Of a stretch of 64,000 nt of DNA, positions 116 through 63,694 are shown in pieces. Both the position numbers and the translations under genes were made by a program. Numbering within the stretch: position 1 is the first letter of the stretch; each line of letters opens with the position of its first letter. The notes beneath the pieces are model-generated. The model did no database searches. It saw only the letters and a list, made by a program, of their open reading frames with translations, and was not told the DNA's origin. The DNA is from Burkholderiales bacterium RIFCSPLOWO2_12_FULL_61_40 (lineage in GTDB: Bacteria > Pseudomonadota > Gammaproteobacteria > Burkholderiales > Burkholderiaceae_C): assembly GCA_001770935.1 (NCBI GenBank), contig MESI01000123.1, positions 1 through 64,000 on the forward strand. The letters are read 5' to 3'.

Positions 116-251
116 CCGAAGTGCCAGAGCCCCGGTGTGCCGACCTTCATCTCACCGGTTCTGAAATTTGCCTTGGATATGGCTGCAATCAGTCTTTTAG
201 AGTCATTCCGTTGCCAAGGCAGGAATGCCAATTTGCCCCAATTTCTTTGAG

Positions 252-309
252 AAAAAACAGCCTCTAGCCCCCGTAGATACTGCGCAATCAGCTACTTAAT
301 TTATAGCAA
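252..309 (-). repeat. Dispersed repeat copy 1 (3'-end of hipA remnant)
   Basis: Read on the minus strand it follows the family pattern GCTAT-N8-GTAGCTG, then TTGCGCAGTATC, then GGGGGCTAGAGGC and a T-run. It matches copy 2 (15418-15476) closely along its length. It lies between the left-edge inverted repeat and the decayed hipA fragment. Together with that inverted repeat it accounts for most of the recognisable content of the gene-less stretch 1-426; I see nothing else there. Confidence 0.75.
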
Positions 310-426
310 TCGAAGGCGGGACGCAGGCAGGGCAATCGCATCTCAATGGATAGCACGCCGACCTGCAGCACCTTTTCCATAGACGCGGGGGTCCAGCACG
401 CGCGGTTGCGCTTGCACTGATGCGCG

Positions 427-12929: not shown

Positions 12930-14762
12930 CTACAACGGCAGTGCTTGAGCGTATTTGTCCAGCGCTTGCAGGACGTTCCCTGGTTTTAGCATCTCCCGCG
13001 CCAACTTTTGCGCTGGATTGTTTTCCTCCGGTTGCATCAACTCGGACAACGCTTTTCGGTTGTTGGCTGCTTTATTTATTTCGGACGGGTCTATCGTGGC
13101 AGAAAGGCTGTACAGCGCATAAGCAAGCGCACGACTTGCAACGACGCCCAGGCCGTTGGCGTACATCACGCCGAGATTGCACTGGGCTGCGGCATTCCCC
13201 TGCGCGGCAGCCAGCCGGAACCACTTCACCGCTTCCTGGAAGTCCTGTGGCACGCCTTGGCCGTTGGCGTACATCAGGCCGAGGTTGGCGTGGGCGTTGG
13301 CATCCCCTTGCGCGGCAGCAAGCCAGTGCCACTTCACTGCTTCCTGGTAGTCCTGTGGTACGCCTTGGCCGTTGGCATACATCAGGCCGAGGTTGAACTG
13401 GGCGTCGGCATCCCCCTGCTTAGCAGCAAGCCGGTACCATTTCGCCGCTTCCTGGTAGTCCAATGGCACGCCTTGGCCGTTGGCGTACATCACACCGAGG
13501 TTGAACCGGGCGTCGGCCCGCCCCTGCTCAGCAGCCAACTGATACCACTTCACCGCTTCCTGGTAGTCCTGTTGCGCGCCTTGGCCGTTGGCGAGCATCA
13601 CACCGAGTTTGAACTGGGCGTCGGCGCGCCCCTGCTCGGCAGCCAGCCGGTGCCACCTCACCGCTTCTTTGGAGTCCTGTGGCACGCCTTGGCCGTTGGC
13701 GAGCATCACACCGAGGTTGAATTGGGCGGCGGCATTCCCCTGCGCGGCAGCCAGCCGGTGCCACTTCACCGCTTCTGGGTAGTCCTGTGGCACGCCTTGG
13801 CCGTTGGCGAGCATCACACCGAGGTTGGACTGGGCGTCGGCCCGCCCCCGCTCAGCGGCCGGCCGGTACCACTTCACGGCTTCCTGGTAGTCCTGTGGCA
13901 CGCCTTGGCCGTTGGCGTACATCACACCGAGGTTGAATTGGGCGGCGGCATGTCCCCGCTCAGCGGCCAGACGGTACCACTTCACCGCTTCTGGGTAGTC
14001 CTGTGGCACGCCTTGGCCGTTGGCGTACATCACCCCGAGGTTGGACTGGGCGGCGGCATTTCCCTGCTCAGCAGCCAGCCGGTACCACTTCACCGCTTCT
14101 TTGGAGTCCTGTGGCACGCCTTGGCCATCGTCGTACCTGCGTCCGAGGTTGAACTGGGCGGCGACATTTCCCTGCTCAGCAGCCAGCCGGTACCACTTCA
14201 CCGCTTCCTGGTAGTCCTGTGAAACACCTTGGCCGTTGGCGTATGTCACACCGATGTTGAACTGGGCGGCGGCATGCCCCTGCTCAGCCGCCAGCCGGTG
14301 CCACTTCACCGCTTCCTTGTAGTCCCGTGGCACACCTTGGCCGTTGGCGTATATCACCCCGAGGTTGAACTGGGCGTCGGCATCCCCCTGCTCGGCAGCC
14401 AGCCGGTACCACTTCGCCGCTCCTTTGTAGTCCTGTGAAACGCCTTCGCCGTTGGCGTACATCAGGCCGAGATTGAACTGGGCGTCGACATCCCCCTGCT
14501 CAGCCGCCAGCCGGTACCACTTCACCGCTTCCTGGTAGTCCCGTGGCACACCTTGGCCGTTGGCGTACATCACACCGAGGTAGGCCTGGGCCTGCGCCTG
14601 CCCCAGACTTGCAAATGGCTTGAATTCCTGCAAAGCCGTTGTGTAGTCCCTATTTGCATACGCTGCAACACCCTCGTCCAATCCTGCTGACGCGACTCCA
14701 GGGATCAACAAGGTGAGGCTTATGCCGAGTGCGATGCATTGGATGGGGAGTTGGAATTTCAT
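12930..14762 (-). CDS. Secreted Sel1-repeat protein
   Basis: A 610-residue protein with a Sec signal peptide (cleavage around residue 26, after GVASA). It then has 13 near-perfect 36-residue Sel1-like repeats and one degenerate last unit. Each repeat follows AQFNLGVMYANGQGVPQDYQ then EAVKWYRLAAEQG. Such repeats form TPR-like superhelices that bind proteins, often in envelope or regulatory contexts. The DNA repeat unit is 108 bp and neighbouring units are very similar, so copy number could change by slippage or recombination. The C-terminal part (about 545-610) is non-repetitive, alpha-helical in character and resembles the usual Sel1 cap. Function is not known; periplasmic location is inferred from the signal peptide. 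Confidence 0.88.
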   Translation of the reverse strand: MKFQLPIQCIALGISLTLLIPGVASAGLDEGVAAYANRDYTTALQEFKPFASLGQAQAQAYLGVMYANGQGVPRDYQEAVKWYRLAAEQGDVDAQFNLGLMYANGEGVSQDYKGAAKWYRLAAEQGDADAQFNLGVIYANGQGVPRDYKEAVKWHRLAAEQGHAAAQFNIGVTYANGQGVSQDYQEAVKWYRLAAEQGNVAAQFNLGRRYDDGQGVPQDSKEAVKWYRLAAEQGNAAAQSNLGVMYANGQGVPQDYPEAVKWYRLAAERGHAAAQFNLGVMYANGQGVPQDYQEAVKWYRPAAERGRADAQSNLGVMLANGQGVPQDYPEAVKWHRLAAAQGNAAAQFNLGVMLANGQGVPQDSKEAVRWHRLAAEQGRADAQFKLGVMLANGQGAQQDYQEAVKWYQLAAEQGRADARFNLGVMYANGQGVPLDYQEAAKWYRLAAKQGDADAQFNLGLMYANGQGVPQDYQEAVKWHWLAAAQGDANAHANLGLMYANGQGVPQDFQEAVKWFRLAAAQGNAAAQCNLGVMYANGLGVVASRALAYALYSLSATIDPSEINKAANNRKALSELMQPEENNPAQKLAREMLKPGNVLQALDKYAQALPL

Positions 14763-15294: not shown

Positions 15295-15417
15295 CAGGGA
15301 AGTGATTTTGGTGGATGGATCAAAGGCATATTGTCGTGGATGCAGGCAAACAGCGTCTACGGAAAGTCGTGTGGCAACTGGCGTTGTACTGTTTCGGCCG
15401 GTGGGGTGTGCTACATG

Positions 15418-15476
15418 CTATTGATTTTGTAGCTACTTGCGCAGTATCCACGGGGGCTTGAGGCTATTTTAGCTTC
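15418..15476 (+). repeat. Dispersed repeat copy 2 (3' of lacI-type gene)
   Basis: Starts GCTATTGATTTTGTAGC, then TTGCGCAGTATCC and GGGGGCTTGAGGC, ending in T-rich sequence. It is nearly the same as copy 1 in inverted orientation. It lies immediately beyond the stop codon of the LacI-type regulator (15479), where it could also act as a transcript 3' structure. Confidence 0.75.
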
Positions 15477-26768: not shown

Positions 26769-27356
26769 GGCGTGTTTCCTCAAGTCGGATTGGGTTGGAC
26801 GATGGTTGGGGTCATCGATTGTGCCTTTGCTTTGGGGGCTGTGCCTGTGGCAATCCGCAAGGCTATGCACCCGTTCACTGTTGAAACCTGGGTTTCCCCT
26901 GCTCCCTCTTGTTCTTTTGCCAGGGCATGGCCTGCATGCCCCACGCGCGCCCACCACGCCCCTGGGCAGGTGGATCGGGTGTCCCTTCGGCGGCCCCATT
27001 CGCGGTCGCCACAAAAGCAGGCGCACCGCCAGCGGTGTTCACGCAATAACGAAGGCACACCGGAAACACCGGTCCGCGAGCGTGGGCCAGAGAAGGGATT
27101 CCCGGTTCGCCTGCCCCGCCCATCCGCAGGTCCGCAAGGCCCCGCAAACCAATACAGCCGCTATCAAAAAAATAGCCATCTGCGCTTATTCCACAAGGTC
27201 CAAAGGCCTATTCCATGATCAATCCTGAAAAAAACAGGGTCTGCCCAGCGGCAAGCGGAAACCCTCTGCCTGGCGCAGACCAAAGTTCAACAGCCAACGG
27301 GTACATAGCCATCCGCAATGCCATGCCCCGCACATCGGCGGTGTGATACTTGGCGC
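26769..27356. other. 588-bp gene-less region between pfp and tupB
   Basis: No convincing gene is visible; the frames here lack protein-like composition. It contains dispersed repeat copy 3 (27160-27220) and an imperfect 25-nt inverted repeat. One arm is at 26861-26885 and the other at 27286-27310, matching at 22 of 25 positions. It is the shared upstream region of the divergent pfp and tupBCA units. No known riboswitch was recognised, including the molybdenum/tungsten-cofactor type. Confidence 0.7.
27160..27220 (+). repeat. Dispersed repeat copy 3
   Basis: Begins GCTATCAAAAAAATAGCC, then CTGCGCTTATTCC, then a degenerate version of the GGGCTAGAGGCC segment (GGTCCAAAGGCC) and a T-poor end. It is the only copy standing in a long intergenic region, about 140 nt upstream of tupB. 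Confidence 0.7.
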
Positions 27357-28109
27357 ATGACCGTTTTGACAACAAGTTTTGGCGCTGCATGGCAACTGCT
27401 GGCGTCGCTGGACCCCGGCCTGTGGGCCATTGTGGGGCGCTCGCTGGCGCTCAGTGCCACGGCCTGCCTGCTGGCGTGTTCATTGGGCCTGGTGCTGGGT
27501 GCCTGGCTCGGGGTGGCGCGCTTTGCCGGGCGGGGTGCGGTGCTGGTGCTGCTCAACACTTTTTTGGCCTTGCCTTCGGTGGTGGTGGGGCTGGCGGTGT
27601 ACCTGCTGCTGTCGCGCTCGGGGCCTTTGGGCTTTTTGGGCTGGCTGTTCAGCTTCAAGGCCATGGTGCTGGCGCAAACCCTGCTGGTATTGCCGGTGGT
27701 CACCGCCTTGGCCCGCCAGGCGGTGGACGATGCCGATGCCCTGCATGGCGAGCAACTGCGTTCGCTGGGCGCGGGGCCGCTCTTGCGCAGCCTGCTGCTG
27801 GCCTGGGATGAGCGCTACACCCTGCTGACCGTGGTGATCGCCGCCTTTGGACGCGCCATCTCGGAGGTGGGGGCGGTGATGGTGGTGGGCGGCAATATGG
27901 ACGGCTTCACCCGCGTCATGACCACCGCCATCGCCCTGGAAACCAGCAAGGGTGATTTGCCGCTGGCCCTGGGTCTGGGTCTGGTGCTGCTGGGGGTGGT
28001 GCTGGTGCTCCATGGGCTGTTGGGGCTGCTGCGCCGCTGGCGTGAGCGGGTGGATGGCGGCCAATATGCAGCGCGCACCATGGTGGCGCTGCCGGGGAGT
28101 GCGGTATGA
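27357..28109 (+). CDS. tupB: Tungstate ABC transporter permease
   Basis: A 250-residue binding-protein-dependent permease with about five or six membrane segments. The EAA-type loop contains EQLRSLGAGPLLRSLLLAWDE and the motif GRAISEVGAVMVVGGNMDG found in TupB/ModB-like proteins. The start at 27357 is chosen since MTVLTTSFGAAWQLLASLDPG fits the family; the upstream part of the frame does not. It overlaps tupC by 4 nt (ATGA). With TupC and TupA it imports tungstate for molybdo/tungsto-enzymes. The order B-C-A differs from the common A-B-C. Confidence 0.85.
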   Translation: MTVLTTSFGAAWQLLASLDPGLWAIVGRSLALSATACLLACSLGLVLGAWLGVARFAGRGAVLVLLNTFLALPSVVVGLAVYLLLSRSGPLGFLGWLFSFKAMVLAQTLLVLPVVTALARQAVDDADALHGEQLRSLGAGPLLRSLLLAWDERYTLLTVVIAAFGRAISEVGAVMVVGGNMDGFTRVMTTAIALETSKGDLPLALGLGLVLLGVVLVLHGLLGLLRRWRERVDGGQYAARTMVALPGSAV

Positions 28110-28816
28110 GCCCGGTGTTTCAATTGACCGAAGCCAGCGTGCGCTTGGGCCAGGGGGGTGTGCAGGCCCTGTGCGAGGTGAGTTTGACCATCCAGCCGGG
28201 GGAGCGGGTGGCCCTGGTGGGTGCCAACGGCAGCGGCAAAAGCAGCCTGCTGCGCCTGCTGCATGGCCTGTTGAAGCCTGCAGCCGACCAGTTGCAGGTC
28301 GATGCAGCGCAGCGCCAGGCCATGCTGTTTCAGCGGCCTTACCTCTTGCGCCTGTCGGTGCTGCGCAATGTGGCGCTGGGCCTGTGGCTCGGCGGCGTGC
28401 CGTGGGCGGCGGCCAAGGCGCGGGCCCTGCAAGCGCTGGCGCAGGCGGGGCTGGCCGATCTGGCCCAGCGCAATGCACGGGAACTGTCGGTGGGGCAGGT
28501 GCAGCGGGTCGCCTTGGTCCGGGCCTTGGCCGCCAGGCCCCAGGTGCTGCTGCTGGACGAACCCAGCGCCAGCCTGGACCCGCACGCCAAGCGTGAAGTG
28601 GAGGCGCTGCTGGGCCGCCTGGCCGCCCAGCCGGACATGACCCTGGTGTTTGCCAGCCACAACCTGGGCCAGGTCAAACGCCTGGCCAGCCGGGTGATTT
28701 ACCTGGAGCACGGACGGGTGCTGGCCGATCTGCCGGTGGCCGAATTTTTTTCCGGACCGGCGCTGCCATCGCGCTACCCGCAAGCCCATGCGTTTCTCAA
28801 AGGAGAACTGGTTTGA
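28106..28816 (+). CDS. tupC: Tungstate ABC transporter ATP-binding protein
   Basis: A 236-residue ABC ATPase. Walker A is GANGSGKSS, Q-loop LFQRPYL, Walker B VLLLDEPSASLD and H-loop FASHN. The signature motif reads LSVGQ instead of LSGGQ, a variation seen in some oxyanion importers. The start overlaps the tupB stop and the stop overlaps the tupA ATG (TGATG), so the three genes are translationally coupled. Confidence 0.88.
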   Translation: MSPVFQLTEASVRLGQGGVQALCEVSLTIQPGERVALVGANGSGKSSLLRLLHGLLKPAADQLQVDAAQRQAMLFQRPYLLRLSVLRNVALGLWLGGVPWAAAKARALQALAQAGLADLAQRNARELSVGQVQRVALVRALAARPQVLLLDEPSASLDPHAKREVEALLGRLAAQPDMTLVFASHNLGQVKRLASRVIYLEHGRVLADLPVAEFFSGPALPSRYPQAHAFLKGELV

Positions 28817-29649
28817 TGCATTTTTTAAAGCCTTTTAGGCCTCTAGCCCTTATAAAATGTGCGCAAGCAGCTATGTTTTTCATAGCAATGGTGCCGGTGT
28901 ATGCCCAGTCCATCGTCATGGCGTCCACCACCTCCACCGAGCAATCGGGCCTGTTTGGCCACATCCTGCCCGCGTTCAAAAAGGCCACCGGCATTGACGT
29001 GAAGGTGGTGGCCGTGGGCACTGGCCAGGCGCTGGACATGGGGCGCCGGGGTGACGCCGATGTGCTGCTGGTGCACGACACGGCGGCCGAAGAAAAGCTG
29101 GTGGCCGAAGGCTTTGCCCTGAAGCGCTACCCGGTGATGGTCAACGACTTTGTGCTGATTGGCCCGGCCGCCGACCCGGCGCACGCCAAGGGCCATGACA
29201 TTGGGCAGGCCCTGGCCAGGGTGGCAGCCACCCAGGCCGCCTTCATTTCACGGGGTGACAAAAGTGGCACCCACGCCGCCGAACTGCGCTACTGGAAGCT
29301 CACCCCGGCACCCGATGCCCATGGCATGGGCTACCGGGCGTGCGGCTGCGGCATGGGCCCGGCGCTCAACATCGCCTCCAGCACGGGAGCCTATGTGCTG
29401 GCCGACCGGGGCACCTGGCTCAGCTTCAAAAACCGGGGTGGTCTGGCGGTGCTGGTAGAGGGCGACAAGCGCCTGTTCAACCCCTACGGTGTGATGGTGG
29501 TCAACCCGGCCAAACACCCGCATGTGCAGGCGGCGCAGGCGCAAAAGTTGGTGGACTGGCTGGTGTCGCCCTCCGGGCAGGCGGTGATTGCCAGCTACAA
29601 AATTGGGGGTGAACCCTTGTTTTTCCCCCACGCGCCGCCAGCGCGCTGA
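28813..29649 (+). CDS. tupA: Tungstate ABC transporter substrate-binding protein
   Basis: A 278-residue (or 277 from the ATG at 28816) periplasmic binding protein. After the signal peptide the mature part begins near SIVMASTTSTEQSGLF. The anion-binding motifs STTST and SRGDKSGTH are those of TupA proteins. A TTG at 28813 has AGGAG at 7 nt, and the ATG at 28816 has it at 10 nt; either could be used. Residues 2-24 of the signal peptide (FLKPFRPLALIKCAQAAMFF region) are encoded by dispersed repeat copy 4. The gene therefore uses a repeat as secretion signal. Confidence 0.88.
   Translation: MMHFLKPFRPLALIKCAQAAMFFIAMVPVYAQSIVMASTTSTEQSGLFGHILPAFKKATGIDVKVVAVGTGQALDMGRRGDADVLLVHDTAAEEKLVAEGFALKRYPVMVNDFVLIGPAADPAHAKGHDIGQALARVAATQAAFISRGDKSGTHAAELRYWKLTPAPDAHGMGYRACGCGMGPALNIASSTGAYVLADRGTWLSFKNRGGLAVLVEGDKRLFNPYGVMVVNPAKHPHVQAAQAQKLVDWLVSPSGQAVIASYKIGGEPLFFPHAPPAR
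28821..28887 (-). repeat. Dispersed repeat copy 4, translated as the TupA signal peptide
   Basis: Read on the minus strand: GCTATGAAAAACATAGCTG, CTTGCGCAC, then GGGCTAGAGGCC and T-rich sequence, a close family match. On the plus strand it is in frame with tupA and encodes residues 2-24 of its signal peptide. A positively charged start and a hydrophobic core are supplied by the repeat; the AQ cleavage region follows it. Confidence 0.8.
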
Positions 29650-46744: not shown

Positions 46745-47697
46745 ACGATTCTGTTGTGCCCCAGGAAGTGCTTTTAGCGGAGCCGCGCGGTTTTTGCGCC
46801 GGGGTGGACCGCGCCATTGAAATCGTGGACCGCGCGCTGCAAAAGTTCGGCCGCCCCATCTACGTGCGCCACGAAATCGTGCACAACACCTATGTGGTGA
46901 ACGACCTCAAGAACCGGGGCGCCATTTTTATTGAAGAGCTGGACGACGTGCCGCCCGGCGCCACCCTGGTGTTCTCGGCCCACGGTGTCAGCCAGGCCAT
47001 TCAGCGCGAAGCCCTGGCGCGCGGTTTTCGCATCTTTGATGCCACCTGCCCCCTGGTCACCAAGGTGCATGTGGAAGTAGCCAAGCTGCACAAGGAAGGT
47101 TTTGAATTCATCATGATCGGCCACAAGGGCCACCCCGAGGTGGAAGGCACCATGGGCCAGCTGGACAGCGGTATCCACCTGGTGGAAGACGTGGCCGATG
47201 TGGCCCGCGTGGCCCCCGGCCAGACCGAAAAACTGGCAGTGGTGACCCAGACCACGCTGAGTGTGGACGACGCGGCGGAAATTGCAGCCGCCGTCAAGGC
47301 CCGCTTTCCCTGGGTGCGCGAGCCCAAGCAGCAAGACATTTGCTACGCCACGCAAAACCGCCAGGATGCGGTCAAGGTCATGAGCCCGCAGGTGGACATT
47401 GTGATCGTGGTGGGCAGCCCCACCAGTTCCAACAGCAACCGCCTGCGTGAAGTGGCGCGCAAGCTGGGCACCGAGAGCTATATGGTGGACAGTGCCGACG
47501 AGTTGCGGCCCGAGTGGTTTGAAGGCCGCCAGCGCGTGGGCCTGACCGCCGGCGCCTCGGCCCCCGAGATTTTGGTGAAAGCCGTGATCGACCGCATCAA
47601 GGCCCTGGGCGCGGTGTCGGTGCGCAAGATGGACGGCATCGAAGAGACCGTGAAGTTCCCCTTGCCCAAAGGACTCAGATTGGATAATGCTATCTAA
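46741..47697 (+). CDS. ispH: 4-hydroxy-3-methylbut-2-enyl diphosphate reductase
   Basis: A 318-residue IspH, the last enzyme of the MEP isoprenoid pathway, forming IPP and DMAPP. The three [4Fe-4S] Cys are in EPRGFCAGVDRAIEIV, DATCPLVTKVH and DICYATQNRQDAV, with the catalytic Glu/Thr region QTTLSVDD. Initiation is at GTG overlapping the slpA stop (GTGA). The last residues (N-A-I) and the stop codon are formed by dispersed repeat copy 5. Confidence 0.95.
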   Translation: MNDSVVPQEVLLAEPRGFCAGVDRAIEIVDRALQKFGRPIYVRHEIVHNTYVVNDLKNRGAIFIEELDDVPPGATLVFSAHGVSQAIQREALARGFRIFDATCPLVTKVHVEVAKLHKEGFEFIMIGHKGHPEVEGTMGQLDSGIHLVEDVADVARVAPGQTEKLAVVTQTTLSVDDAAEIAAAVKARFPWVREPKQQDICYATQNRQDAVKVMSPQVDIVIVVGSPTSSNSNRLREVARKLGTESYMVDSADELRPEWFEGRQRVGLTAGASAPEILVKAVIDRIKALGAVSVRKMDGIEETVKFPLPKGLRLDNAI

Positions 47698-47746
47698 TTG
47701 ATAGCTGTCTGCGCAATAAAATAGAGGGCTAGAGGCCTTTTTGATA
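47689..47746 (+). repeat. Dispersed repeat copy 5, overlapping the ispH stop
   Basis: GCTATCTAATTGATAGC, TGTCTGCGC, then GAGGGCTAGAGGCC and TTTTTG. The GCTATCTAA start encodes Ala-Ile-stop of ispH. It is a full-length, consensus-like copy and its dyad plus T-run could act as a transcript end before serS. Confidence 0.85.
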
Positions 47747-47756
47747 CTTAAACTAA

Positions 47757-54940: not shown

Positions 54941-56176
54941 ATGGAAAGCTACCTTCTGGACTGGGCGAACCTGCTGCTGCGCTGGGTTCACGTCATCACC
55001 GCCATCGCCTGGGTGGGCTCCTCGTTCTACTTTGTTTTTCTGGACAGCAGCCTCACTCCGCCGACGGATGAAGACCTCAAACGCCAGGGCGTCAGCGGTG
55101 AGCTGTGGGCCGTACACGGCGGCGGTTTCTACCACCCGGTCAAATTTGCGGGAGCGCCGCCGCTGTTGCCTGCCCATTTGCACTGGTTTTACTGGGAGAG
55201 CTACAGCACCTGGCTAACCGGGTTCGCGCTGTTCACCGTGTCCTACCTGTGGAATGCGGGCACTTACCTGATCGACAAGTCGGTGCTGGACTGGGCGCCG
55301 TCCTCGGCCATTGCCGTGGCGCTGGCTTTTCTGGTGCTGTTCTGGCTGGCCTACGACGGCATTTGCCGCGTCTTTGGACAGCGTAAAAACGGTGACGCCA
55401 TCGTCGGCGCGCTGGTGGCACTGCTGGTGTGCGGGGCGGCCTGGCTGGCCTGCCACTGGTTTGCCGGGCGGGCGGCCTTTTTGCTGATCGGCGCCATGGT
55501 CGCCACCAGCATGAGCGCCAATGTGTTTTTCTGGATCATTCCCGGCCAAAAGACCATGGTGGCGGACATCCAAGCCGGTCGGCCGGTGGACCCCATCCAC
55601 GGCAAACGTGGCAAACAGCGCAGTGTGCACAACACCTATTTCACGCTGCCGGTGCTGTTTGCCATGCTGAGCAACCACTACAGCTTCACTTACAGCCATC
55701 CAAATAACTGGCTGGTGCTGATTCTGATGATGCTGGCCGGTGCCGCCATTCGCCAGTTTTTCGTGCTGCGCCATGGCTACAAGCTGGGCCGCAATGGCCA
55801 CCCCTGGCGTTATGCGCTGGTGGGTGTGGTCGTGATTGTGGGGGTTCTGGTGTGGCTGAAGCCGGTGCCGCAAGCCAATGCTGTTGCTATGAATTCAGTA
55901 GCTGTTCACGCTGATTCCACGGGGGCTGGAGCACAAATTGACTATCAAAAACTGCAGCCCTTGCTGGCCCAGCGTTGTTATACATGCCATGGCGAAACCG
56001 TGCAGATGAAAAATGTCCGCCTGGACTCCCCGCAGGGGGTGAAAAGCCACGCCCAGGCCATGTACCTGCAGGTGGTGCTGAACCGCGCCATGCCCTTGAA
56101 CAATGCCACCGGCATCACCGAGGCAGAGCGTTTGCTGGTCAAACAATGGTTTGAAAGCGGTGCCAGCGTCAACTAA
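54941..56176 (+). CDS. puuD: Membrane urate oxidase with cytochrome c domain (PuuD type)
   Basis: A 411-residue protein. The N-terminal part is the urate-oxidase domain with about eight membrane segments (LRWVHVITAIAWVGSSFYFVFLDSSL, HWFYWESYSTWLTGF, VHNTYFTLPVLFAMLSNHYSFTY). The C-terminal 80 residues carry a haem site CYTCHGE. It oxidises urate to 5-hydroxyisourate and passes electrons to the respiratory chain. The start at 54941 is the ATG before the first conserved helix. The linker between the two domains (residues 316-332) is encoded by dispersed repeat copy 7. Confidence 0.9.
   Translation: MESYLLDWANLLLRWVHVITAIAWVGSSFYFVFLDSSLTPPTDEDLKRQGVSGELWAVHGGGFYHPVKFAGAPPLLPAHLHWFYWESYSTWLTGFALFTVSYLWNAGTYLIDKSVLDWAPSSAIAVALAFLVLFWLAYDGICRVFGQRKNGDAIVGALVALLVCGAAWLACHWFAGRAAFLLIGAMVATSMSANVFFWIIPGQKTMVADIQAGRPVDPIHGKRGKQRSVHNTYFTLPVLFAMLSNHYSFTYSHPNNWLVLILMMLAGAAIRQFFVLRHGYKLGRNGHPWRYALVGVVVIVGVLVWLKPVPQANAVAMNSVAVHADSTGAGAQIDYQKLQPLLAQRCYTCHGETVQMKNVRLDSPQGVKSHAQAMYLQVVLNRAMPLNNATGITEAERLLVKQWFESGASVN
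55886..55940 (+). repeat. Dispersed repeat copy 7, inside puuD coding sequence
   Basis: GCTATGAATTCAGTAGCTG, then CACGCTGATTCC and ACGGGGGCTGGAGC match the family pattern. It is translated in frame as AMNSVAVHADSTGAGAQ, the linker between the membrane and cytochrome domains. The reading frame has stayed open across it. Confidence 0.75.
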
Positions 56177-62200: not shown

Positions 62201-62211
62201 CTTATATGTCA

Positions 62212-62265
62212 AATAGGTGCTAAGCCCGCACTGAATAAGCGTAAGCAGCTACTCTTTTTATAGCG
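62212..62265 (-). repeat. Dispersed repeat copy 8, at the end of the deaminase gene
   Basis: Minus strand: CGCTATAAAAAGAGTAGCTG, CTTACGCTTATTC, then GCGGGCTTAGCACC and T-rich sequence. Its first bases CTATAA give the last Leu and the stop codon of the deaminase gene (end at 62258). It lies between two convergent genes. Confidence 0.75.
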
Positions 62266-63694
62266 AAAGTCCGGCCAATTGAACTGCCAGTGCGTTGTGA
62301 CGCTCCACCAGGGGGCCCAGATCCACGGTGGTCAATTGGCCTTGGCGCACCACCACGCGGCCGTTGACGATGGTGTAGTCGGCTTGCGGGCTGGCGCACA
62401 GCAGCAGGGCGCCGATGGGGTCGTGCACCGCGCCTCCGGCAAAGCCCAGGGTGTTGAGGTCAAACAGGGCCAGATCAGCGCACATGCCCATGGCCAGGTG
62501 GCCGATGTCGCTGCGCCCCAGCACCTGCGCACCGCCCCGGGTGGCGACGCCCAGGGCGTCGCGCACCGTCATCTCGGCCGGCCCCAGGTCGCAGCCGAAG
62601 AAGGTGCGTCCTTCCCGCTGTTCGGGTGGCTGCATGGCCCGGCCCACGCGCGCCAGCAGCAGGGCTTGGCGCGCTTCGTTCACCAGGTGCGCGGCGTCGT
62701 TGCTGGCGCAGCCGTCCACGCCCAGGCCCACCGGCACGCCCGCATTGAGCATGCGGCGAATCGGGGCGATGCCGCTGGCCAGGCGCATATTGCTGCACGG
62801 GCAGTGGGCCACGCCGGTGCGGGTGGCAGCAAACAGGCTGATGCCTGCATCGTCCAGCTTCACGCAGTGGGCGTGCCATACGTCATGCCCCAGCCAGCCT
62901 AAGTCTTGCGCGTATTGGGAGGGGGTGCAGTTGAACTTTTCGCGCGAGTAGGCCAGGTCGTGGTCGTTCTCGGCCAGGTGGGTGTGCAGGCGCGCACCCA
63001 GTGACCGTGCCAGCAGGGCCGATTCACGCATCAGGTCACGGCTCACGCTAAAAGGAGAGCAGGGCGCCACCGCCACGTTGACCATCGCGCCATGCCCGGT
63101 GCCGTGGTAGGTCTCAATCAGCCTTTGGGTGTCCTGGAGGATGAAGTCTTCCTGTTCCACCACCCGGTCCGGCGGCAATCCACCCTGGGATTGGCCCACA
63201 CTCATGCTGCCGCGCGTGGCCACAAAACGCATGCCGATTTCGTGCGCCGCTTCAATGCTGTCATCCAGCCGCACGCCATTGGGGTAGATGTAGAGGTGGT
63301 CGCTGCTGGTGGTGCAGCCGCTCAAGAGCAACTCGGCCATGGCCACTTGGGTGCTGATCCGCACCATCTCGGGTGTCAACCCCGCCCAGATCGGGTACAG
63401 GCCGCGCAGCCAGCTGAACAACTCGGCGTTTTGCACCTGGGGAATGGCCCGGGTGAGGCTTTGGTACATATGGTGGTGGGTGTTGACCAGGCCCGGCGTC
63501 ACCAGATGGTTGCGGGCGTCAATGACTTCATCGGCATTTACTGCTTCCTGGGGAAGGTCGGCAGCGGAGCCGATATAGGCAATGCAGTTGTTGCGGATGA
63601 AGAGGGATGCATCCCGCAGTTCACGTGCGTGGCTGGGGTCGGCATGGTCAAAGGTCGCCACACAACGGGCATTTTGAATCAACAGGGTAGACAT
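62258..63694 (-). CDS. 8-oxoguanine deaminase (amidohydrolase superfamily)
   Basis: A 478-residue amidohydrolase. Metal ligands and motifs: LVTPGLVNTHHHMYQSLTRA, GARLHTHLAEND, WHAHCVKLDDAG, HCPCSNMRLASGIAPIRRM and GLGVDGCASNDAAHLVNEAR. These resemble 8-oxoguanine deaminases and hydroxyatrazine-type ATZ/TRZ enzymes. It would deaminate 8-oxoguanine to urate, feeding PuuD and thus linking to xdhC/puuD at 54-56 kb. Guanine-related or s-triazine substrates are alternatives. Start at 63694 (Met before the first strand). Confidence 0.85.
   Translation of the reverse strand: MSTLLIQNARCVATFDHADPSHARELRDASLFIRNNCIAYIGSAADLPQEAVNADEVIDARNHLVTPGLVNTHHHMYQSLTRAIPQVQNAELFSWLRGLYPIWAGLTPEMVRISTQVAMAELLLSGCTTSSDHLYIYPNGVRLDDSIEAAHEIGMRFVATRGSMSVGQSQGGLPPDRVVEQEDFILQDTQRLIETYHGTGHGAMVNVAVAPCSPFSVSRDLMRESALLARSLGARLHTHLAENDHDLAYSREKFNCTPSQYAQDLGWLGHDVWHAHCVKLDDAGISLFAATRTGVAHCPCSNMRLASGIAPIRRMLNAGVPVGLGVDGCASNDAAHLVNEARQALLLARVGRAMQPPEQREGRTFFGCDLGPAEMTVRDALGVATRGGAQVLGRSDIGHLAMGMCADLALFDLNTLGFAGGAVHDPIGALLLCASPQADYTIVNGRVVVRQGQLTTVDLGPLVERHNALAVQLAGLSL

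Follow-up and report, generated by a model that had tools for sequence, protein, structure and literature searches.

A dispersed repeat of the Comamonadaceae as the probable source of much of the signal peptide of a TupA-like protein

Three consecutive genes in the 64,000-nucleotide stretch of contig MESI01000123.1 of Burkholderiales bacterium RIFCSPLOWO2_12_FULL_61_40 analysed here (the window) encode a tupB-like permease, a tupC-like ATP-binding cassette (ABC) ATPase, and the 277-residue precursor of a TupA-like periplasmic tungstate/oxyanion-binding protein (Table 1). A copy of a dispersed repeat of the Comamonadaceae lies behind the tupA start codon, and it is the probable source of most of the h-region, and of part of the n-region, of a Sec signal peptide, a reading to which we assign a probability of roughly 0.86 on the sequence evidence set out below. 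The best NCBIfam match of the tupA product is NF041772 (TupA), at 213.9 bits, and it is named TupA-like because this score is below the family cut-off of 400; it also matches the tungstate-binding protein of PDB entry 3lr1 (E 5.1e-65). The tupB product scores 163.3 bits against NF041773 (TupB), below the cut-off of 320, and none of the ABC ATPase families among the 25 matches listed for the tupC product is above its cut-off.

The tupA leader and its repeat copy

The leader of the TupA-like precursor, MHFLKPFRPLALIKCAQAAMFFIAMVPVYA, is followed by QS, with proposed cleavage between VYA and QS. By simple measures alone it has the features of a Sec signal peptide, namely a basic n-region, a hydrophobic core (residues 15-26, CAQAAMFFIAMV) and an A-x-A-type site; a preliminary description of this DNA had likewise read the repeat as a basic start leading into a hydrophobic core, with the cleavage site just beyond. 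Signal peptide cleavage sites follow the -3/-1 rule, from which we infer cleavage after residue 30, and the leader would drive export of the protein. Four of the five solved relatives found (3lr1, 5my5, 3muq and 3kn3) align from residue 30-32, and the fifth, 3cvg, is a weak match that aligns from residue 70. Nothing favouring the use of a downstream start, which the preliminary description had named as a contrary outcome, was found in the sequences.

With positions 28806-28896 as query, BLAST matched at least 40 places in this genome (4.99 Mb, 132 contigs), the tupA copy included. A model of the repeat (R1; 64 positions, 9 base pairs) was built from an alignment of 23 other copies and finds at least 150 copies in the genome; the tupA copy, held outside the training set, ranks 14th among the 150 matches listed and is a member of the family by this test. 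The window holds eight R1 matches with E of at most 1; for seven of these E is < 1e-4, and four of the seven are training copies. An internal stem of nine pairs is predicted in the repeat, and Rfam covariance models gave no match to positions 28700-29000 at E up to 10. Read on the strand opposite to the canonical one, in what we call frame B, the repeat encodes approximately KPNRPLAPVEYAQAAIKFIAK, in which basic residues precede a stretch that is nearly hydrophobic. In the tupA copy the complete codons are those of precursor residues 5-25, KPFRPLALIKCAQAAMFFIAM, which make up part of the basic start and most of the hydrophobic core.

Table 1. Features of the tup locus and repeat copies in the window
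Feature	Position	Strand	Evidence
tupB-like permease	27318..28109 (start may be 27360)	+	NF038017 ABC_perm1, 220.8 bits, above cut-off 100
tupC-like ABC ATPase	28106..28816	+	open reading frame; ABC ATPase families
tupA-like gene, binding protein precursor	28816..29649	+	translation, NCBIfam, PDB
Shine-Dalgarno-like AAAGGAG, inside end of tupC frame	28799..28805	+	sequence, pattern
Predicted Sec signal peptide, residues 1-30, cleavage after VYA	28816..28905	+	sequence, alignment starts, hydropathy
Repeat copy at tupA 5' end (canonical strand minus)	28827..28890	-	R1 cmsearch, 74.1 bits, E 4.1e-14
Repeat copy	248..311	-	R1, 70.9 bits, in training set
Repeat copy	15413..15476	+	R1, 65.7 bits, in training set
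Repeat copy	55882..55945	+	R1, 60.8 bits, in training set
Repeat copy	47685..47748	+	R1, 58.8 bits, in training set
Weaker repeat copy	62205..62268	-	R1, 43.9 bits, E 1.9e-7
Eroded repeat copy, upstream of tupB	27156..27219	+	R1, 35.7 bits, E 1.2e-5

The earlier observation that a dispersed repeat encodes the TupA leader is real and partly confirmed. The copy had been placed at 28816-28887 and credited with residues 2-24; that start is 11 bases and that end 3 bases too early. The overlap with tupC in TGATG is as described, the stop (TGA, 28814-28816) and the start (ATG, 28816-28818) sharing one base, but the start, said to lie inside the repeat insertion point, is not made by the repeat: the Shine-Dalgarno-like sequence (GGAG, 28802-28805) and the ATG lie just outside the repeat match. 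The cleavage site also lies outside it. A GGAG-type site precedes the in-frame start in 48 of the 55 orthologous leaders that carry the repeat and in 65 of the 72 that do not, as these sets are defined below.

Orthologous leaders and the history of the insertion

TupA matches were found in 75 of 103 congeneric genomes, at 78 places, of which 70 leader regions were read and eight were left out (contig ends or a missing N-terminus); the nearest named TupA locus is that of Rhodoferax sp. C4_metabat.bin.82 (L223, 88%). R1 located the repeat at the leader in 25 of the 70 loci, in all 25 on the strand opposite to tupA, with scores from 74.1 down to 13.7 bits (22 at E < 0.01, the weakest at E 2.1). 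The other 45 loci have other leaders and gave no R1 match at the leader at E up to 10; a further R1 match in one congener (L045) lies elsewhere. In a wider sample of 80 named TupA loci, the best 80 of 532 candidates encoding a relative, R1 also finds the repeat at leaders, with high and low scores.

These 150 loci, less two with short upstream sequence and 21 duplicates, gave 127 distinct leaders, each of which was scored with a weight matrix of 86 distinct copies from the window's own genome (tupA copy excluded) and compared with 400 synonymous shuffles. Fifty-five leaders beat all of their shuffles with z >= 3.6 and a score > -20; 25 of the 68 congeneric leaders and 30 of the 59 named ones belong to this set, and they come from Rhodoferax, Polaromonas, Acidovorax, Paracidovorax, Comamonas and other records. 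The remaining 72, the Pigmentiphaga outgroup among them, show no DNA resemblance beyond what their amino acids require; L102, L252, L268 (z 3.5, score -57.6) and L104 (1/400 shuffles) were not counted as repeat leaders. The top 65 scores all fall in one phase; with the orientation reversed, the highest score reached by any of the 127 leaders is -9.8. The distance to the mature part is -94 in 27 of the 55, -106 in 15, -82 in eight and other values in five.

Alignment of orthologues, the check that the preliminary description had proposed, bears it out: wherever an orthologue has the repeat, its place, orientation and frame are the same, those without it have, among those read, different leader DNA and mostly different leader peptides, and no repeat-free orthologue with the same leader DNA was encountered among them. 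Because at least five orthologues (L233, L254, L267, L224 and L239, the last from Polaromonas sp. JS666) keep the peptide pattern, as judged by eye, without DNA resemblance (z -0.3 to 1.5), a leader lacking the repeat and one in which it has eroded are not always distinguishable.

The leaders differ from other copies of the repeat in particular residues. Repeat position 10 is acidic in 54 of the 86 other copies and in 3 of 55 TupA leaders; a charged residue occurs within positions 12-20 in 47 of 69 stop-free other copies and in 6 of 55 leaders; and the mean hydropathy of these positions is 0.92 in other copies and 2.19 in leaders. Such a loss of the acidic residue and of core charges is what selection for a signal peptide predicts. 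The best 10-residue hydropathy of the repeat leaders (2.49) is close to that of the 72 other leaders (2.42; p 0.17), and that of the 69 stop-free copies when placed in the tupA leader context averages 1.44; the tenth percentile of the other leaders is reached by 12% of the placed copies versus 89% of the repeat leaders. Pooled over 13 close pairs, the proportions of synonymous (pS) and nonsynonymous (pN) differences are 0.27 and 0.19 for the repeat-encoded stretch; for the mature part they are 0.39 and 0.03.

Leaders with and without the repeat are clustered on the phylogeny. A tree of 124 mature TupA sequences, rooted on four Pigmentiphaga rows that all lack the repeat, requires 18 changes of state, or 12 without eight ambiguous rows; shuffled states require a mean of about 41, and none of 500 shuffles was as low as 18. 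A concatenated TupB-TupC-TupA tree of 84 rows requires 15 changes (10 without ambiguous rows), against a shuffled mean of 28, and once more no shuffle among 500 came as low. Members of closely related groups have the repeat leader in common. In the approximately unbiased (AU) test a single clade of all repeat rows of the genus was not rejected (p 0.37 with L095 and L102, 0.35 without them), and the genus tree without these two rows needs two changes. The history may have been one of a single old insertion followed by losses, or one of several insertions. Just before the tupA leaders of three congeners (L047, L083 and L088) stands CATTGCGAGCGCAGCGAAGCAATCC, which resembles a second kind of dispersed repeat that has moved into the start of this gene.

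The repeat inside enzymes and in other exported-looking proteins

A peptide profile of frame B matches at least 150 places in the window's own genome. Among the matches listed, 55 besides tupA lie in stop-free frames of at least 150 residues and were examined, and 20 of these were compared with NCBIfam. In 10 of the 20 a single family match spans the repeat peptide: PurL, Pgi, PgeF, NadE, DapF, CoaBC, guanine deaminase, ProA, HpnE and an enoyl-CoA hydratase, the last below its cut-off (L157, L180, L190, L191, L194, L178, L185, L203, L192 and L159). In six the repeat lies at the edge of or between matches or is spanned by weak families only, and four have no family at the threshold used. When DapF is compared with solved structures, the repeat stretch aligns poorly and is about ten residues longer. 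Because it is inserted in frame inside conserved enzymes, the repeat behaves like the Rickettsia palindromic elements (RPEs), which Ogata is said to have described in 2000 and 2002; no description of such behaviour for this repeat family was found in the open-licence literature searched. The tupA leader seems to be a case in which a peptide of this passenger type became useful.

The same leader may have arisen in other proteins. Of 399 genomes of the family, 41 matched a pattern consisting of a ribosome-binding site, ATG and CTCTAGCCC. The sample comprised 47 loci, 30 from this search and 17 from another; R1, applied to 46 of them, gave matches in 23 (E up to 1), and frame B was translated for 22. 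In most of the translated loci frame B is short or no leader, and at the remaining locus, L124 of the window's own genome, the frame soon reaches a stop; six begin long frames as leaders. In bits that are inflated, part of the repeat having served to select the loci, R1 scores 46.5 at L132 (SH3-like, Pfam E 0.0018, below cut-off), 37.4 at L220 (a small lipoprotein with MAGC and of no family), 26.8 at L136 (Peripla_BP_6, a branched-chain-type binding protein), 26.8 at L207 (DUF2147), 25.9 at L131 (SBP_bac_5, a family 5 binding protein) and 21.5, at E 0.037, at L206 (an outer membrane efflux protein, a NodT-type lipoprotein with VAGC). We take MAGC in L220 and VAGC in L206 to be lipoboxes. At each of the six loci, 0 of 4000 shuffles scored as high, whether the codons of CTCTAGCCC were free or held. 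L131 was left out of the count because its matrix score is near zero despite beating all shuffles, and five exported-looking proteins besides TupA (L132, L136, L206, L207 and L220) start with the repeat in frame B. We lean, by a small margin, towards the view that the repeat carries a ready-made proto-signal peptide on which Comamonadaceae drew repeatedly, for TupA in several genera and for at least five unrelated exported proteins or lipoproteins, as a standing source of secretion signals.

Among the 55 frame-B places in the window's own genome no second clear N-terminal exported leader was seen by eye, other frames not having been surveyed. At L183:1707-2444 of this genome the repeat stands directly behind an ordinary, perhaps twin-arginine translocation (Tat)-like leader, at the border of leader and mature part; the product is thioredoxin-like (Pfam E 0.0021, below cut-off).

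Two further repeat structures of other kinds lie in the window. Positions 20-115 hold an inverted repeat of 30 nt, 90% complementary, with arms 36 nt apart, and positions 12930-14762 (minus strand) encode an exported-looking protein of 610 residues, presumably a Sel1-like repeat protein, with tandem 108-nt units in 13 copies in register (12 are 79-100% and one is 64% like the reference copy).

Competing explanations, known systems and meaning

We propose that a repeat copy came to lie behind an inherited ribosome-binding site and start codon and before an inherited cleavage region, and that its proto-leader would have replaced an ordinary leader by insertion with loss of the old one. Substitutions would then have removed the acidic residue and the core charge, and the leader peptide may be kept while the resemblance of its DNA to the repeat fades. 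The interpretation that the repeat acts as an exported-protein leader, advanced in the preliminary description, is supported in this form by the sequence comparisons.

Several points weigh against this account. Export is a prediction made from the sequence. All 86 copies used for comparison belong to a single genome, with open frame B over-represented among them, and the 55 leaders are mutually related; because of this non-independence the p-values are too small. Both cuts that define the 55 were set after the table of scores had been viewed. The common frame is also best in 101 of the 127 leaders, 46 of the 72 non-repeat leaders included, which indicates that composition shares in it, and the shuffle test alone is not perfectly specific, since L102 (z 3.8, score -61.0) and L252 (z 5.0, score -68.7) also beat all 400 shuffles. 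The pooled leader pN/pS of 0.72 indicates weak constraint and is also compatible with relaxation; weak constraint is common for signal peptides. Finally, the window's own genome and its sister (L021 and L022) stand apart from the main repeat clade on the TupA trees and in an unresolved fork on the TupB-TupC-TupA tree, and because these two are not grouped with the other repeat leaders a single insertion is not shown.

It is extremely improbable that the leaders resemble the repeat only through the Ala-, Leu- and Ile-rich composition of signal peptides. Such convergence would fit the similar peptides of the five leaders without DNA resemblance, the frame common to most leaders, and the very low scores at which L102 and L252 beat their shuffles; it does not fit a match of 74 bits over 64 nt, synonymous positions included, or the 55 of 127 leaders whose DNA exceeds every synonymous shuffle, and these shuffles make an origin in amino-acid make-up unlikely. 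Codon usage points the same way: residue 15 is encoded by GCT, and residue 19 by GTA or ATA, in 53 of 55 repeat leaders each, although the mature part seldom uses these codons, a retention that is only suggestive because the 55 were picked by DNA score. The same codons form an inverted motif, GCTA...TAGC, intact in 46 of 55 leaders and 61 of 86 other copies, and these rare codons have been kept where positions next to them changed. This would also fit retention of the repeat for DNA or RNA structure, such as tupC-tupA translation coupling or a protein-binding site, with the peptide as a by-product. We regard this as unlikely, if less so than convergence: the motif count is favoured by the same picking on DNA score, the local RNA around the tupA copy is no more stably folded than its shuffles (z 0.37), the differences from other copies concern just those residues that are unfavourable in a signal core, and the peptide pattern persists in five leaders whose DNA does not resemble the repeat.

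The window's own genome has many in-frame passengers, and the tupA copy might be one of them, as in PurL and Pgi, with export through the rest of the leader or absent altogether; this too is very improbable, as without residues 5-25 only MHFL and VPVYA remain, too short for a core, and relatives are annotated as periplasmic binding proteins. A signal peptide drawn largely from the repeat is compatible with more than one history, and separate insertions into this one site in different lineages, or gene conversion from other copies that renewed the leader, are an alternative to a single event that we consider possible though the less probable course. The 18 (12) and 15 (10) changes on the two trees, the closeness of the window's tupA copy to the family consensus and the varying distance to the mature part among the 55 would agree with it; the identical orientation and frame in all, the leaders shared by related groups and the single clade not rejected within the genus (two changes without L095 and L102) speak against it.

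The preliminary description called a repeat-derived leader an unusual route to a secretion signal; rare it is, but a precedent exists. RU-2, a palindromic sequence of Yersinia, forms part of the predicted signal of YPO1552, and proteins related to YPO1552 have unrelated signals (Delihas 2007, PMC2759123); a repeat-derived signal is also described in another Delihas paper (PMC2229807). RU-2 differs in being 168 bp long, apparently of other sequence, and found in Yersinia in one putative exported protein, whereas the present repeat involves a transporter component, many species, evidence at codon and residue level, and further proteins with the same leader.

RPEs, of about 150 bp, occur in frame in unrelated protein genes, metabolic enzymes included (PMC10969869); the present family shares with them the in-frame insertion of a repeat peptide inside conserved protein genes and is set apart by its size of about 64 nt and its short predicted stem, and by its occurrence in Comamonadaceae. 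The motif ATAGCT(N)22CAAAAG of Polaromonas naphthalenivorans CJ2, with 125 copies (101 intergenic, 18 in genes and six across a gene start or end; PMC5217627), may be a relative, in that it shares ATAGCT with the repeat and has a second hexamer at the corresponding place; this second hexamer is CAAAAG as against CTAGAG here, and the excerpt describes no coding role. The betaproteobacterial repeat element (BRE), of about 90 bp, with a mean of 69% GC in Bordetella and four copies in R. ferrireducens (PMC3110155), is likewise a short dispersed repeat with some copies within genes; size and GC content rule it out as the identity of the present repeat (64 nt, 38-59% GC in the copies measured). The available parts of PMC2755013, PMC5217627, PMC3733652, PMC10969869 and PMC3110155 describe no repeat-derived signal. 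In the open-licence literature, subscription papers being outside the scope, we found no paper in which this repeat is described as forming a signal peptide, no text containing its core letters, and no paper joining 'Rickettsia palindromic element' with 'signal peptide'. The kind of phenomenon is already known from RU-2; the present variant of it is well supported, with a function that is predicted.

With at least 150 repeat copies in one genome, passengers in enzymes, and leaders ranging from near-consensus to unrecognisable DNA in which the peptide pattern is preserved, the family forms a natural series that displays the residue differences between a raw repeat and a working-looking signal. 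The origin of signal peptides is an open question that has been argued mostly from random-sequence experiments. The tupA leader and its relatives offer a testable case of selfish-looking DNA turned into part of a protein.
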